Assembly (NCBI GenBank): GCA_023251555.1
Contig: JAHEYN010000012.1
Location: forward strand, 1-64,000
Direction: 5' to 3'
DNA length: 64,000 nucleotides
Origin: Bacteroidota bacterium
GTDB lineage: Bacteria; Bacteroidota; Bacteroidia; AKYH767-A; JAHEYN01
Below the pieces are notes generated by a model. The model was not told the origin of the DNA. It was given only the letters and a program-made list of their open reading frames with translations, and did not search any database. Positions 23,002 through 30,608 of this stretch are shown here, in pieces. Each line of letters starts with the position of its first letter. The first letter of the stretch is position 1. The position numbers were made by a program, and so were the translations under genes.

Positions 23002-24525
23002 TTAATTTATACTAATAAGTTTTTTAGTTATGATTCTTCCATCAACTACCATTTTCAAAAAATAGATGTTTGCAGGAGAAAAATATTTTTCAATATTAAA
23101 AACAAATTCATGCTTACCCGGCATTCTGGTGTCTTCCTGCTGATAATAAACCCTGCGATTAAGTATATCATATATTTCAACAGACACATTTGATCTTTTA
23201 TTCAAAACATAGCTAACATTAGCCTGACCTGAAAAAGGATTAGGAAACACTTCAAGAACCACCTCAGGATCTGGTTTTATATTATTTAACCCGCTATTGA
23301 TTTCATAACATATTTTAAGGCTTGGGCGAAGATTAATATCAGAATAATTATTCGAAGCAAATATCATGGAGTTGTAATAACCTTCTACCTGAAGCCGCAA
23401 CATAAAACCAAAGCTGGTTGACGGACTATTGATCATATCCTGAACAAGATTTTTTACATCTATATTCAAATAATTTTGTGCGGAGGAAGAGCTTTGGGAA
23501 AGTATGACTTGATTCTGTATTGTAGTATTAGGTTGAGTATTCCAAGATACTGTATTTTCATTCCAGCTAGAAGTGATTCTTTGAAGCAAGCTTGTATTTG
23601 CTGTGCCATACATAGCAACACCCCCTCCATTGTTTGGATTCGGGTAAGCATACAAAGACATTTTAGAATCCGTAATCACTGCATTCGCAGGTATAGAAGT
23701 TAAATCAAATTGTATAATACTTCTTGCATAGCATGGATTACCGCTACAAGTCCATCCTACTGAAGAAAATTGTGTGCTATGTCCAATGTTAGTAGAGGGC
23801 TGGGCGCCATCTACATAAACACATTTTCCAGTTACAGCATCAGGTATTATAGTTGTGCATGTGTCATTGCTACTCGTAGTAGCGGTATCATAAGTAATCG
23901 TTAATGATGGGCGCAAAGTAGAATCAGAATAATTATTCGAAGCAAATATCATGGAGTTATAATAATTTTGTGTCTGAAGTTGTAACATAAAACCAAAACT
24001 GGCAGATGGATTATCTACCATATCCTGAACAAGATATTTCACATCTATATTCAAATAATTTTGTGTTGAAGAAGTGCTCTGAAGAAGTACAACTTCGTTC
24101 TGGGTAGTGGTATTGGGTTGATTGTTCCATGTTGCTGTATTTTCATTCCAGCTTGAAGTAATTCTTTGAAGCAAACTTGTATTTGCTGTGCCATACATAG
24201 CCACACCAGCACCATTATTTGGGTTTGGATAGGCATATAATGATAACCTCGCGTCCGTAACAACAGCATTAGTTGGTATAGAAGTTAAATCAAATTGTAT
24301 AATACTTCTTGCATAACATGGATTACCACTGCAAGTCCATCCCACTGAAGAAAATTGAACACTATGTCCGATATTGGCAGACGGTTGCGCACCATCTAAA
24401 TAAACACATTTTCCGGTTACCGCGTCAGGTTTTAATACAAGAGTTGTTTGAGCGCTTAGGTGATTACCAATAATTATAAATACAAGAAAAACTTTAGCAG
24501 CATTAATCATAAGAATCTTTTTCAT
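23002..24525 (-). CDS. secreted DNRLRE-domain protein with two tandem domains and T9SS type A tail
   Basis: A 507-residue cargo protein. Signal peptide 1-~25 (VFLVFIIIGNHLSAQ). Two near-identical DNRLRE domains at 33-213 and 228-408, joined by a 14-residue Thr/Ser linker; each has the signature SSWNENTATWNNQP (or NTVSWNTQP) and a Cys pair in WTCSGNPCYARS. Residues ~425-507 are a T9SS sorting domain (VFPNPFSGQANVSYVL, VEIYDILNRRVYY, NIYFLKM). DNRLRE domains are found in extracellular and carbohydrate-related proteins. The gene is visibly more AT-rich than its neighbours, which suggests recent acquisition or relaxed composition. Confidence 0.9.
   Translation of the reverse strand: MKKILMINAAKVFLVFIIIGNHLSAQTTLVLKPDAVTGKCVYLDGAQPSANIGHSVQFSSVGWTCSGNPCYARSIIQFDLTSIPTNAVVTDARLSLYAYPNPNNGAGVAMYGTANTSLLQRITSSWNENTATWNNQPNTTTQNEVVLLQSTSSTQNYLNIDVKYLVQDMVDNPSASFGFMLQLQTQNYYNSMIFASNNYSDSTLRPSLTITYDTATTSSNDTCTTIIPDAVTGKCVYVDGAQPSTNIGHSTQFSSVGWTCSGNPCYARSIIQFDLTSIPANAVITDSKMSLYAYPNPNNGGGVAMYGTANTSLLQRITSSWNENTVSWNTQPNTTIQNQVILSQSSSSAQNYLNIDVKNLVQDMINSPSTSFGFMLRLQVEGYYNSMIFASNNYSDINLRPSLKICYEINSGLNNIKPDPEVVLEVFPNPFSGQANVSYVLNKRSNVSVEIYDILNRRVYYQQEDTRMPGKHEFVFNIEKYFSPANIYFLKMVVDGRIITKKLISIN
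23302..23844 (-). repeat. tandem DNRLRE unit, second (C-terminal) copy
   Basis: Codes residues 228-408. Matches the first copy at a constant offset of 585 bases (195 codons), with long identical DNA stretches such as those coding FASNNYSD and CYARSIIQFDLTSIP. Confidence 0.9.
23887..24429 (-). repeat. tandem DNRLRE unit, first (N-terminal) copy
   Basis: Codes residues 33-213. The two copies stay in register without gaps, so the duplication is an exact in-frame 585-base unit including the linker. Confidence 0.9.
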
Positions 24526-25886: not shown

Positions 25887-25959
25887 TTAAATTGGTATTA
25901 ACCCCGGGGCAAGTCCCGGACCCTCTTTTCCGCCGCAGCGAAACGCGAAGGCGGTTAAA
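25887..25959 (-). repeat. interspersed intergenic repeat, copy C
   Basis: Read on the minus strand it begins TTTAACCGCCTTCGCG and ends GGTTAATACCAATT; it matches copies at 43775..43838 and 56824..56895. The ends TTAACC/GGTTAA are inverted. It overlaps the last codon and stop of the phosphatase gene: the TAA stop is part of the repeat's TTTAA end. Confidence 0.85.
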
Positions 25960-27946
25960 TCCTGATGCCCATCACCAGGATATCATCAATCTGTTCCCTT
26001 CCGGCTTTCCATTGATCCATGGTCTTTTCAAGTTCTTCTTTCTGTGAGTTCGTATCAAGGCCGCTTATCTTCTGCAGCAACTCCTGGAAGGGGGGATAAT
26101 AAAATTTCTTATTGGCCGGCCCGCCTTTCTGATCTGCAAAACCGTCGGAAAACATATACAGCATATCCCCCTTTTTCACTTTGATGAGATTATTGGTGAA
26201 CGGGGGAGGTTTTTCAGATCCGAGAATCTGCCTGCTGATGGATACCCTGTCTGCTTTATATTCGGTGAGTTTTCCGTCGCGGATAAAATACAGCGGAATT
26301 TTTGCCCCGGCATATTCCACTTCCATCTTTTGGTAATCAATAGCGCAAACTGCTATGTCCATCCCGTCTTTTACGGAATTTGCCGAAACGTGGTGCTTCA
26401 GGGTATATTCTATTTCTTTTTGCATCTGGTCTAATATGTGTGAAGGGCAGGATGCGGCGGTAGTTGACTTCTGAAGCATGTTATGCCCAATAATAGACAT
26501 GAAAGCGCCCGGTACGCCATGTCCGGTACAGTCTGTTACCGCGGATATTATTTTGCCGGAATCATGCCGGCTTATAAAATAAAAATCACCGCTCACCACA
26601 TCCTTCGGCCTGAAAAATATAAAACATCCGGGAAGCAACTGTGCTATTTCCGTGGGCAGCGGAAGAATGATTTCCTGGATCTTCTGGGCATATTCAATGC
26701 TGTCGGTGATCTGCAGGTTTTTCTTTTTGATCTCTATGTTTTGCACGTCGAGTTTCGCATTCAGTTTCTTGATGAGTCTGAAGCGGTTGCCCAGCAGGAC
26801 GGTGAACATGACAATAAGGATAAAGCCGGAGATGAAAATGTTTTTCATCGTTTTCTGGCGCCCCAGATCTTTTTCTTTCAGTTCTTTATCCTTGTTCAGA
26901 AGCTGGATCTCTTTTTCTTTTTTGTCGGTTTCGTAAAGAGCCTGCATCTGTGCTGTTTGTTTTGATGTTTCTGCATTCAGCAGCGTGTCCTTCAGCTCTG
27001 CATACATACTTAGATACTCGAAAGCTTTTTTGTAATCTCCTTTCTGCGAATAGAGCTTGGAAAGATTTTGGTACAACTCCTGGAATATCTCTTTTGACTG
27101 CAGCTCCTCCGTGAGGCGGAGTGCCTGATTGAGGTAGCCGAGTGCCTTGTCGTATTGTTTCATGTTGACATAAACAATCCCGATGTTGGCGGTGGAACTG
27201 ACGATTCCTCTTTTATCCCCGGTTTCTTTTTTCAGGATGAGCGACTGCATGTAATAGCGGATTGCTTCCTCATAGTTTTTTTTGACGTCATAGATCATCC
27301 CGATATTGTTGAGTGCGTAAGCCATGCTTTTTTTGTCTTTTGTCTGAGTGTTAAGAGCCAGACTCTCCCTGTAGTAAAAGAGGGCACTGTCAGGAATGTC
27401 TTTTTTATAGTAAACATTGGCAATGTTGTTATAGGAGGTGGCTATTGTTTTTTTGTCGTTTATTTCTTTTCCGAGTGCCAGTGCGCGGAGGTTGTAACGG
27501 AGAGCCATGTCCTGGTTGCCCTGACGGGAGTATACCAGTCCTATATTATTGAGCGATGACCCGGTGGCAAGCTTATCACCGAGCTCTTCAAACAGTTTAA
27601 GACCAGCAAAAAAGTTAGTAAGCGACCGTGCATAGTCGCCGAGAAAATAATAAGCGAGACCCTGGTTACGGGCTGCCTTGGCGAGCCCGGTTTTAAAATG
27701 AATCTTCGCAGCCAGCTCCCCGGCCTCCCTGGCAAGAGTGAGTGTCCGGGCAGGGTCATCCGTTCGCAGCTCAAAGGCCAGGGCATTGAGGGCGTTGACT
27801 TTATTGGTGTCATCTTTCTGCTTTGTGATTGCAAAAGCCATGGAGTCAAGCCTGGGCGTCTGGGAATACACAAACGGAAAAGGGAAAAGAAAAAGGAAGA
27901 ACAGCGCTGCCCGTAAAATATAAAGTCTGTTTTCCGGGAGGTTCAT
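25955..27946 (-). CDS. TPR-containing SpoIIE-type serine phosphatase (membrane signalling protein)
   Basis: A 663-residue protein: signal peptide or N-terminal anchor (about 8-28), six to seven tetratricopeptide repeats (about 55-320; for example NNIGLVYSRQGNQDMALRY, NNIANVYYKKDIPDSALFY), a Lys/Glu coiled coil, a membrane helix near 365-385 (IFISGFILIVMFTVLLG), a second short coiled coil, and a C-terminal PP2C/SpoIIE phosphatase domain with metal-binding [10 protein letters not shown] and [15 protein letters not shown]. The design is periplasmic TPR sensing linked to a cytoplasmic phosphatase. It has a paralogue at 49929..52088. The partner anti-anti-sigma protein and kinase are not in the window. 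Follows the YiiX-like gene by 19 bases. Confidence 0.9.
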   Translation of the reverse strand: MNLPENRLYILRAALFFLFLFPFPFVYSQTPRLDSMAFAITKQKDDTNKVNALNALAFELRTDDPARTLTLAREAGELAAKIHFKTGLAKAARNQGLAYYFLGDYARSLTNFFAGLKLFEELGDKLATGSSLNNIGLVYSRQGNQDMALRYNLRALALGKEINDKKTIATSYNNIANVYYKKDIPDSALFYYRESLALNTQTKDKKSMAYALNNIGMIYDVKKNYEEAIRYYMQSLILKKETGDKRGIVSSTANIGIVYVNMKQYDKALGYLNQALRLTEELQSKEIFQELYQNLSKLYSQKGDYKKAFEYLSMYAELKDTLLNAETSKQTAQMQALYETDKKEKEIQLLNKDKELKEKDLGRQKTMKNIFISGFILIVMFTVLLGNRFRLIKKLNAKLDVQNIEIKKKNLQITDSIEYAQKIQEIILPLPTEIAQLLPGCFIFFRPKDVVSGDFYFISRHDSGKIISAVTDCTGHGVPGAFMSIIGHNMLQKSTTAASCPSHILDQMQKEIEYTLKHHVSANSVKDGMDIAVCAIDYQKMEVEYAGAKIPLYFIRDGKLTEYKADRVSISRQILGSEKPPPFTNNLIKVKKGDMLYMFSDGFADQKGGPANKKFYYPPFQELLQKISGLDTNSQKEELEKTMDQWKAGREQIDDILVMGIRI

Positions 27947-27965: not shown

Positions 27966-28646
27966 TCAGTTTTGAATGACAGTAATTAAGTATCCCGACT
28001 CAAAAATAGCGGGAGTGGAAACTACCGGCTCATTAAGGGGAAGGTGCCTTCCGAAGTGCTCCTTCAGGTTTTTCACTATCACCGTGTCAGAGAGGTTGAA
28101 ATCTTTCAGGTGTTCCGGCCTGCTCAGTTCAATGCCTGCGGATTCCTTATATATTTTCCATATCAGCTCAGCATTGTACATGCGTTCATCTGACCACTCG
28201 TAGAAGTTGTCGTAATCTTTACCCTTATGCTGTTCGGACAGGTCTTTCATTTTGTCGATGACGCCCGCTGACAGGATTTTCCCGGCATCTTTAAGGCGCT
28301 TCACCACGTACCGCCCGTTCTCCCCGTTTTTTATCCAGTTGGCCATGAGGGTCATTTTCACGGGCTGCGAAGCTTCGTAAACATAGTATGCACTTCCTTT
28401 CCTGAAAAGGATGCCTGCGTGGTTGTATGTTCCTCCTGCCAGGATTTTCATGGTACCGGCCTGTTCCGAATCCGAAGCCTGGAAAATGATGTCCCCATCC
28501 ATCAGTTCCACGGAAGGGATCTCCACCGATTTTATTTTCTGACCGAGAAAAAAGAAAAGGCTTAATGTAATAAATGCACACCCTGATATAAAAGTAAGCA
28601 CCCTGCGCTTGCCGAATCTTTTCAGGAGTATGTTCCAGAGAGGCAT
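27966..28646 (-). CDS. YiiX/NlpC-P60-like protein, probable catalytic Cys replaced
   Basis: A 226-residue protein with an N-terminal membrane helix (VLTFISGCAFITLSLFFFLG) and a permuted papain-like YiiX domain: DGDIIFQ at about 49-55, the His segment YNHAGILF, and the C-terminal motif at MYNAELIWKIYKESAGIEL. Family members I know have Cys-Ser-Glu-Leu at that last motif (CSELV or CSELI); here it is Asn-Ala-Glu-Leu (codon at 28173..28175), so the nucleophile seems lost. The rest of the tail, including PEHLKDFNLSDT, is well kept, so the gene does not look decayed. Probably co-transcribed with the PorE-like gene upstream and the phosphatase downstream. Confidence 0.8.
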   Translation of the reverse strand: MPLWNILLKRFGKRRVLTFISGCAFITLSLFFFLGQKIKSVEIPSVELMDGDIIFQASDSEQAGTMKILAGGTYNHAGILFRKGSAYYVYEASQPVKMTLMANWIKNGENGRYVVKRLKDAGKILSAGVIDKMKDLSEQHKGKDYDNFYEWSDERMYNAELIWKIYKESAGIELSRPEHLKDFNLSDTVIVKNLKEHFGRHLPLNEPVVSTPAIFESGYLITVIQN

Positions 28647-28691: not shown

Positions 28692-30608
28692 TTATCTGGC
28701 AATAATCAAAAACTCTGTCCGCCGGTTTTTAGCCCTGTTTTCTTCCGTGTCATTGGGAGCTACGGGCTTTTTTTCACCGTAGCCTTTAAAAGAAAGTCTT
28801 GCCTTGCTTATGCCGTTTTGCAGGAGAATGTCATATACCGTGAAAGCCCTGTCGGTAGAGAGCGCAAGGTTACTGTTGTCATCGCCCACATTGTCAGTAT
28901 GCCCCTGTATTTCTATTTTTACAGCGGGATTCTCTTCGAGAAACTCAAGGAATTCCCTCACTACCGCTACTGATTCCCCTTTGAGCTCTGCAGAGTTTGT
29001 TTCATAATAGATGTTATTGAGCCGGTAACTTTTTCCGACTTCCATGCTCGTAAGCGGGACATCCACCTGTATAGGTTCAAGTGTGACAGGATCATCCTGT
29101 GAAAAATAGGCCGATTCAAAAGCATAGTCTTTTCTTTTGATGGTCATGATCACGTCGCTGTCAAAATTCACCACTCCTACATAGTGCCCGGTGGCGGAGT
29201 CAACCGACACCCTTGATACTTCATTGGTTTTTATGTTTTTCAGTTCGACATTTGCATTGATGGGCGTGGTATCGTTGTTCTCCTTCTTAAGGTCTCCTTT
29301 TACAAAGAGAACCTTTTCCGGCCGGGCTCCTTCGTAGAGCGGAAAAGAATATACATCCCATCCGCCTTTTCCCTTGAGTTTATTGGAAGCGAAATAACCC
29401 GTCTTCCCGTCGGTGCTTACAAAAAATCCAAGGTCATCGGCTTCGGAATTGATAGGGTATCCTATATTTTTCGGAATCCCCCAGTTTCCCGTGCTGTCTG
29501 TTTTTGAAAAGAAGATATCATATCCCCCAAGGCCGGGAAGGCCGTCGGAAGAAAAATAAAGCGTGCGGTTGTCAGGATGTACGAAAGGAGATTTTTCGTT
29601 TCCGCGCGTGTTGATTTTGTTGTTGAGTTTCAGGGGAGAAGACCACTTCCCTTCCCGGCTTTTTTCGGTTTTATAAATGTCGCTTCCGGACGAAGAATCA
29701 CGGTTGCTTGCGAAATAGAGAATCCTGCCATCGCGGTCAATACAGGGCTGTGAATCCCATGCTTTCGGATCGTTAACTTCGGGACCGAGGTTTCGTATCT
29801 CGCTCCAGGAGCCATTTTCAAAGTCTGAGGTGTAGATGTCGCAGTTGATGATTTTTTCTTCCGGCTTGCAGATGGTGAAGAAAAGGTGGTTATTATCCAC
29901 CGTGACGGAAGCACCCCCCTCGTTATTATTCTGGTTGAAAGGATAGGGCATGAGATCTCCCTTGTCAAACACATTCACAACCCTTTTGCTGAAGGTGAAC
30001 TCTTCGATGCTCACAGGCATAATGTCTCCCCTTTTGATTTTATCATAACGCCTGGTGTAAAAGGCAAGTTCATTGTCGGGAGAGATGATAGGGAGATATT
30101 CATCTTTCTCGCTGCATACACCCTCAAGGGGCGCAGGGTTAAAGGGTACTTTGTTTTTTAAGATTTTGGCCACCCTGATAAGGCTGTCGGCAAACAGGAG
30201 TTGTTCCTCCTTGGCTTTTTCAGATTTTGTGAACTCTTTGAGATACTTTAACGATTCATCATACTGTTCTTTATAGAAAAAATAGGTGCCCAGGTCAAAG
30301 TAGGGGAGCTCTGAAAAAGAAGGACAAAGTTCTATGACTTTCTTATAGGCTTCTATGGCTGTCTTATAATCCTCGAGGCGCTTGGCACGCTTCGCCAGGA
30401 AAAGATATGCTTCAGGGAATTGAGGTTCTTCTTCCGCGGCAAGGTCAACCAGTTCCCTGCATTTGTCGAAATTTTTTTCAGACTTTGCTTTTTCGAGCAG
30501 CTTCCTTGCTTTTGGGTTAGTGACCTTCTGGCAGTTTTTTTCATCTTCCTGCGGAAAAGCAATGTGGGATAGCAGCAGGAGCACCGGCAGAACAAACAGC
30601 CTTCTCAT
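28692..30608 (-). CDS. porE: PorE-like OmpA-family protein (TPR, PD40 propeller, CRD, OmpA)
   Basis: A 638-residue periplasmic/outer-membrane protein. Signal peptide 1-19 (LFVLPVLLLLSHIAFPQ). TPR segment ~25-150; WD40-like PD40 beta-propeller repeats ~165-420 (LYFASNRDSSSGSDIYKT, LYFSSDGLPGLGGYDIFFS); a carboxypeptidase-regulatory-like domain ~430-500; and an OmpA peptidoglycan-binding domain ~525-638 with EIQGHTDNVGDDNSNLALS and RAKNRRTEFLI. This four-part order is that of PorE, which anchors the T9SS to peptidoglycan. Similar proteins are abundant in Bacteroidota, so the exact identity is likely rather than proven. It follows aroC by 12 bases. Confidence 0.82.
   Translation of the reverse strand: MRRLFVLPVLLLLSHIAFPQEDEKNCQKVTNPKARKLLEKAKSEKNFDKCRELVDLAAEEEPQFPEAYLFLAKRAKRLEDYKTAIEAYKKVIELCPSFSELPYFDLGTYFFYKEQYDESLKYLKEFTKSEKAKEEQLLFADSLIRVAKILKNKVPFNPAPLEGVCSEKDEYLPIISPDNELAFYTRRYDKIKRGDIMPVSIEEFTFSKRVVNVFDKGDLMPYPFNQNNNEGGASVTVDNNHLFFTICKPEEKIINCDIYTSDFENGSWSEIRNLGPEVNDPKAWDSQPCIDRDGRILYFASNRDSSSGSDIYKTEKSREGKWSSPLKLNNKINTRGNEKSPFVHPDNRTLYFSSDGLPGLGGYDIFFSKTDSTGNWGIPKNIGYPINSEADDLGFFVSTDGKTGYFASNKLKGKGGWDVYSFPLYEGARPEKVLFVKGDLKKENNDTTPINANVELKNIKTNEVSRVSVDSATGHYVGVVNFDSDVIMTIKRKDYAFESAYFSQDDPVTLEPIQVDVPLTSMEVGKSYRLNNIYYETNSAELKGESVAVVREFLEFLEENPAVKIEIQGHTDNVGDDNSNLALSTDRAFTVYDILLQNGISKARLSFKGYGEKKPVAPNDTEENRAKNRRTEFLIIAR

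Follow-up and report, generated by a model that had tools for sequence, protein, structure and literature searches.

A YiiX-type protein of Bacteroidota with asparagine at the position of the catalytic cysteine

A YiiX-type gene and its neighbourhood

The window, a 64,000-nucleotide stretch of a Bacteroidota draft genome, carries a YiiX-type gene flanked by two genes on the same strand (Table 1). Its product matched the Peptidase_C92 profile (PF05708) at 79.2 bits, against a cut-off of 27 (E=4.8e-22), and is thus a member of this family, while a sequence search against Escherichia coli YiiX (PDB 2if6) gave E=5e-39. An AlphaFold2 model, built from an alignment of 38 sequences, reached a mean pLDDT of 91.6 and superposed on 2if6 with a Z score of 28.6 over 178 residues at 1.4 Å, and on a second bacterial structure, 3kw0, with a Z score of 17.5. 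In this model, H76 precedes position 158, as expected for a permuted papain-like fold. On the YiiX equivalog profile (NCBIfam NF007458), the window protein scored 207.6 bits, below the curated cut-off of 216, compared with 280.9 bits for an intact relative (L044). A subunit of the Euglena respiratory supercomplex (PDB 8iuf, chain E7) also resembles the YiiX fold, with Z scores of 8.6 and 9.2.

Table 1. Features of the YiiX-type gene and its flanking genes, in window coordinates.
Feature	Position	Strand	Evidence
TPR/PD40/OmpA protein, PorE-like architecture; upstream, 45 bases before the YiiX-type gene	28692..30608	-	ORF and profile matches
YiiX/Peptidase_C92 protein, 226 aa, nucleophile replaced	27966..28646	-	ORF, PF05708, PDB 2if6, predicted model
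Hydrophobic membrane helix, residues 16-34, with C23; KRFGKRR on its N side	28545..28601	-	Prediction and sequence
Asn75	28422..28424	-	Ser or Thr in 84/86 Cys-bearing rows
His76, equivalent to YiiX His49, kept	28419..28421	-	Alignment
Glu91, equivalent to YiiX Glu64, kept	28374..28376	-	Alignment
Tyr145, equivalent to YiiX Tyr115 (fatty-acid contact), kept	28212..28214	-	Alignment; role from PMC3142127
Codon AAT, Asn158, replacing the YiiX nucleophile Cys128	28173..28175	-	Cys in 70/70 intact YiiX-type rows
Codon GCT, Ala159, replacing Ser129	28170..28172	-	Ser in 70/70 intact rows
TPR-SpoIIE phosphatase-type protein; downstream, 19 bases after the YiiX-type gene	25955..27946	-	ORF and profile matches

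A helix was predicted at residues 2-34 of the window protein, and it contains C23, the only cysteine of the protein. According to the positive-inside rule, the C-terminal domain would lie in the periplasm. A lipoprotein reading of the ISGC motif (residues 20-23) is not favoured, since the hydrophobic stretch runs on beyond C23. Judged by eye, three sister proteins (L017, L020 and L028) resemble lipoproteins.

The gene had been described as lying between a PorE-like protein and a TPR phosphatase. The neighbours are indeed of these kinds, but the upstream protein scored only 251 bits on the PorE model, far under its curated cut-off of 600. Within the same order, a PorE-like gene was found near aroC strongly in three and weakly in one of 12 aroC loci, while yiiX and the TPR-SpoIIE gene were near aroC in none of these 12, some of whose contigs end within a few kilobases. 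We, thus, rejected a conserved operon around the window gene; yiiX may have been inserted beside an older gene pair, and the neighbours say little about the role of the window protein. TPR matches around three other loci (L114-L116) lie kilobases away from yiiX, and scans for promoters and terminators yielded no usable result. Elsewhere in the window (23002-24525, reverse strand), a secreted protein is encoded that combines a pair of similar CBM96/Disaggr_repeat domains with a T9SS sorting tail.

The active site

The catalytic residues of YiiX were described by Xu and colleagues (PMC3142127) as Cys128, His49, Glu64 and Tyr115, and a fatty acid, tentatively modelled, occupies the hydrophobic S1 pocket, where it is hydrogen-bonded to Tyr115. 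With the YiiX histidine set as H49 in our alignment, these residues correspond to N158, H76, E91 and Y145 of the window protein. Codons 157-161 read TAC AAT GCT GAG CTG (Y-N-A-E-L), and positions 158-159 are Cys-Ser in all 70 intact rows closest to YiiX. The prediction of an asparagine instead of the catalytic cysteine was, therefore, borne out. We also looked for a catalytic cysteine elsewhere in the protein and found none, because the single candidate, C23, lies within the N-terminal membrane helix and the domain itself is devoid of cysteine. The histidine, the polar third residue and the conserved tyrosine of an active C92 enzyme are all present, as H76, E91 and Y145. The alignment, the fold and the tree described below all speak strongly for loss of the nucleophile, and sequence and model together give good support to the view that the thiol chemistry of the C92 family would be unavailable to this protein.

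The claim that the protein is otherwise well kept holds in part. We defined conserved columns as those where at least 85% of the intact rows share one residue. The window protein matched 33 of these 44 columns and departed from the consensus at 11 (65, 69, 70, 72, 149, 158, 159, 190, 197, 198 and 211), on top of a long end branch. Residues 65, 69, 70 and 72 belong to the helix immediately N-terminal of His76.

Distribution of homologues

Using the window protein as a query, we surveyed overlapping sets of genomes from its order (42 genomes), its class (395) and its phylum (395). The first alignment comprised 103 rows, namely the query, 2if6 and 101 homologue rows, seven of which were dropped as fragments or deleted copies. 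Cysteine occupied the nucleophile position in 85 of the other 94 homologues and was absent from nine in this first survey. Two genomes were searched in the family of the window's genome; the window protein was the sole match in one, and the other had none. The order yielded seven other matching loci, five of which (L004-L008) encode YiiX-type proteins with the cysteine and one (L011) a distant C92 protein that also carries it. At the seventh (L010 1504-1766, genome G011), the YiiX gene has lost its middle, so that residues 39-68 join 170-223 and both the His and the Cys are gone. A 211-aa YiiX-like ORF in another genome (L097 950-1582, G274) apparently lacks the Cys-bearing helix, with a C-terminal end that is homologous by eye; it has Asn preceding the His.

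No additional Cys-less relative was found in three further orders. Two of them, with two and seven genomes, gave three loci, all already known from the earlier surveys, and the third, with 42 genomes, gave 13 places, from which all ten fetched loci carry the cysteine. It was also kept at all seven loci on viral contigs; a plasmid search returned nine records. The window's genome encodes a second C92 protein (L002 1345-1998), which is distant and has intact YSHAGF and YCSEF motifs; no intact YiiX-type partner was found there. The L002 gene adjoins an ORF that resembles, by eye, arginyl-tRNA synthetase.

Phylogeny of cysteine loss

A first tree was computed from 96 rows with the active-site columns masked. 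The best tree required three changes for Cys loss, and a single origin was recovered in none of 200 bootstrap trees. The losses fell on the window protein, on a Ser/Ala clade of family f41 (L072, L085, L086, L088, L090 and L093) and on an Asn clade of family f45 (L083, L087 and L089). The window protein was placed among Cys-bearing homologues (L044, L017, L028, L020, L018, L019 and L025) on an end branch of 1.25, approximately 3-8 times longer than the 0.16-0.43 of its neighbours, and of 1.25-1.34 over the different trees. In a second tree of 63 rows, from which long rows were omitted and to which extra Asn rows were added, it took the same place with 91/86 support.

We compared alternative groupings using AU tests, the tested groups having been named after the first tree had been seen. 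A shared loss by all Cys-less proteins was not rejected on the first tree (p=0.054). Grouping the window protein with the Asn clade was not rejected on the first tree (p=0.076) but was rejected on the second (p=0.0098), whereas grouping it with the Ser/Ala clade was rejected on neither (p=0.228 and p=0.148). Since the AU test rejects the window protein inside the Asn clade on one of the two trees, the change from Cys to Asn probably arose twice. Three separate losses of the cysteine are the best but not the sole reading of these alignments, which would also allow a loss shared with the Ser/Ala clade.

Asn75 was present in 8 of 10 Cys-less rows, compared with 1 of 86 Cys rows, a difference that represents just two or three independent events and does not amount to a significant test. 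Seven further intact rows also have Asn75 (L165, L166, L167, L169, L171, L172 and L173). The window protein and the Asn clade have lost 10 of 12 non-Cys conserved columns in common, against 5.65 expected (p=0.005), in a post hoc test uncorrected for relatedness. The corresponding overlap with the Ser/Ala clade showed no excess (5 against 4.94 expected).

Two further clades that lack the cysteine

Ser/Ala-type copies of yiiX (L104-L109) adjoin a CorA-family transporter gene in all six genomes, which belong to a single family. A MORN-repeat gene is nearby in all six and an SCO1 gene in five. This neighbourhood is a conserved position within a single family, and no more.

Among 87 genomes of family f45, 43 gave matches, at 56 places in total, and 53 of these places were read. 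Asparagine occupied the nucleophile position in 17 genes from 15 genomes (L124-L134, L138, L139, L142 and L168), with pairwise identities of 27-98%; L168 lies on a long branch and may represent another separate origin. Two of these loci hold tandem pairs of Asn-type YiiX genes (L138 1504-2852, genome G770, and L139 254-1526, genome G774), which share 39-45% identity with the lead sequence of the Asn clade. An intact YiiX copy is encoded as well in 11 of the 15 genomes. Asn158 and Tyr145 are present in all 17 genes and Asn75 in 16. The His column contains Tyr in 11, Cys in four, His in one and Phe in one, and the Glu column Tyr in 13, His in three and Phe in one, so that only one gene retains the catalytic His and none the Glu. 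The asparagine of this clade is, therefore, not kept as part of a catalytic triad.

The Nei-Gojobori method applied to seven of these genes gave dN/dS ratios of 0.02-0.16 for 20 of the 21 pairs, the remaining pair being saturated, and five intact f45 paralogues gave 0.06-0.16 in 10 pairs. As dS exceeded 1 in many f45 pairs, these ratios are rough; the least saturated pair (dS of 0.23) had a ratio of 0.042. The f45 Asn clade is under strong purifying selection, within the roughness of these ratios. The model computed for one of these proteins (pLDDT 82.8) superposed on 2if6 with a Z score of 23.7 but lacked the helix that residues 61-70 form in the window model. In YiiX, the S1 pocket is bounded by a loop, with a helix, that joins the first two strands (Xu and colleagues, PMC3142127). 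Because this helix is absent from its model, the Asn clade may have a remodelled pocket.

Interpretation

We give somewhat better than even weight to the reading that the window protein is a non-catalytic YiiX fold, anchored in the inner membrane and exposed to the periplasm, that binds an acylated ligand; its orientation, ligand and lack of catalysis we infer. This reading is favoured because the nucleophile is missing while His, Glu, Tyr and the predicted fold are kept, because the cysteine was lost three times on the best tree and a separate Asn clade is maintained by selection, mostly next to an intact YiiX in the same genome, and because Tox-Act1, LnsA, RipD and the fatty acid beside Tyr115 of YiiX offer precedents. 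The N-terminal helix would anchor the protein in the inner membrane, its domain facing the periplasm, and the absent thiol would block the acyl-thioester intermediate used by active superfamily members. The remaining cleft, formed by His76, Glu91 and Tyr145 with the new Asn75 and Asn158, could then hold an acyl chain or an acylated peptide uncut, and the protein might bind lipids or lipoproteins or compete with active C92 enzymes. The original prediction that it binds rather than cleaves its substrate is plausible, because a separate Asn clade is under strong purifying selection and Tyr145 is kept.

Some observations point away from a binder. The window gene appears to have no close relative in the surveyed genomes, and its long branch and changed columns also fit relaxed constraint. 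Unlike the f45 Asn clade, the window protein keeps His, Glu and Tyr, which may leave room for residual chemistry. Moreover, the Asn clade may have a different pocket, judging from the missing 61-70 helix of its model, and the window's genome seems to hold no intact YiiX-type partner.

The window protein could instead be a decaying former enzyme that lost its nucleophile under relaxed selection, its gene being on the way out. The branch of 1.25-1.34 and the 11 changes in 44 columns would be expected of such a gene, the only other genome searched in the family lacks a match, and decayed YiiX copies without the Cys region occur elsewhere (L010 and L097). We nevertheless regard decay as rather unlikely, given that three of the four catalytic residues and 33 of the 44 columns are kept and that the frame is open over its full length at 49% identity to the best homologue. 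Such a frame was kept in 0.65% of 2,000 neutral simulations, which disregard indels and speak against a long drift, not against a recent loss. Because no close relative of the gene was found in the surveyed genomes, decay retains this share of the probability for it.

A bolder proposal, which we consider tentative and on balance improbable, is that two Bacteroidota lineages independently built an Asn75-Tyr145-Asn158 site, in which Asn would replace both the nucleophile and the residue preceding the catalytic His, producing a selected acyl-ligand receptor beside, and maybe regulating, intact YiiX.

It is more doubtful still that the window protein is an enzyme in which His76, Glu91 and Tyr145, perhaps with water or substrate positioned by Asn158, sustain hydrolysis without a thiol. 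His, Glu and Tyr are kept together, and USP53/54, annotated as pseudoenzymes, turned out to be active (PMC12037411). However, Tox-Act1, a distantly related permuted NlpC/P60 phospholipase, is no longer toxic once its Cys or His is replaced by alanine (PMC12994826), and the f45 Asn clade has dispensed with the His in all but one gene and with the Glu throughout. An assembly or sequencing artefact is hardly credible even in a 55-contig draft genome, as two bases must change to turn Cys into Asn, more than a single miscall explains, Ser to Ala takes at least one more, the surrounding frame is clean and the same change occurs in other lineages.

The functions of bacterial YiiX-type proteins have been termed poorly understood in part of the literature, despite the fatty acid in the YiiX crystal. 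If the reading as a binder is true, a naturally dead YiiX kept by selection, often beside a live copy, would offer tools for trapping the ligand of live enzymes, and binding could be distinguished from cutting by paired deletions in a single cultured species.

Comparison with known systems

The window protein has its fold, domain length, His, Glu and Tyr in common with E. coli YiiX (2if6, NF007458, PF05708), from which it differs in the absent nucleophile, the adjacent change of Ser to Ala and an NF007458 score under the cut-off. With the f45 Asn paralogues it shares the Asn at the nucleophile, the Asn before the His position and Tyr145, but not their loss of His (16/17) and Glu (17/17).

LnsA of Staphylococcus aureus, which carries out lipoprotein N-acyl transfer, is a permuted NlpC/P60 protein with YiiX among its top HHpred hits, and its resemblance to YiiX is put at 18% (PMC7387801). 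It presumably has the Cys/His dyad, in contrast to the window protein with its Cys-less domain, and is remote in sequence. RipD (Rv1566c) has an NlpC/P60 domain with catalytic alterations and no hydrolysis (PMC6628586) and binds peptidoglycan, according to the titles of the RipD paper and of PDB entry 4jxb. Like RipD, the window protein is a member of the wider NlpC/P60 superfamily that, on sequence and model, appears to have lost a catalytic residue while keeping its fold. They differ in that the RipD ligand is peptidoglycan and that RipD matched the window model with a Z score of 2.7 over 53 residues only. The RipD domain is canonical, not permuted.

We found no Cys-less YiiX in print among the open-access papers searched, nor in the C92 passages of the 2023 survey of papain-like proteins (PMC10318531). 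Pseudoenzymes are frequent in general, and the wider superfamily already has a known example; new here are the recurrent loss of the cysteine, the repeated choice of asparagine and the selection acting on one clade.
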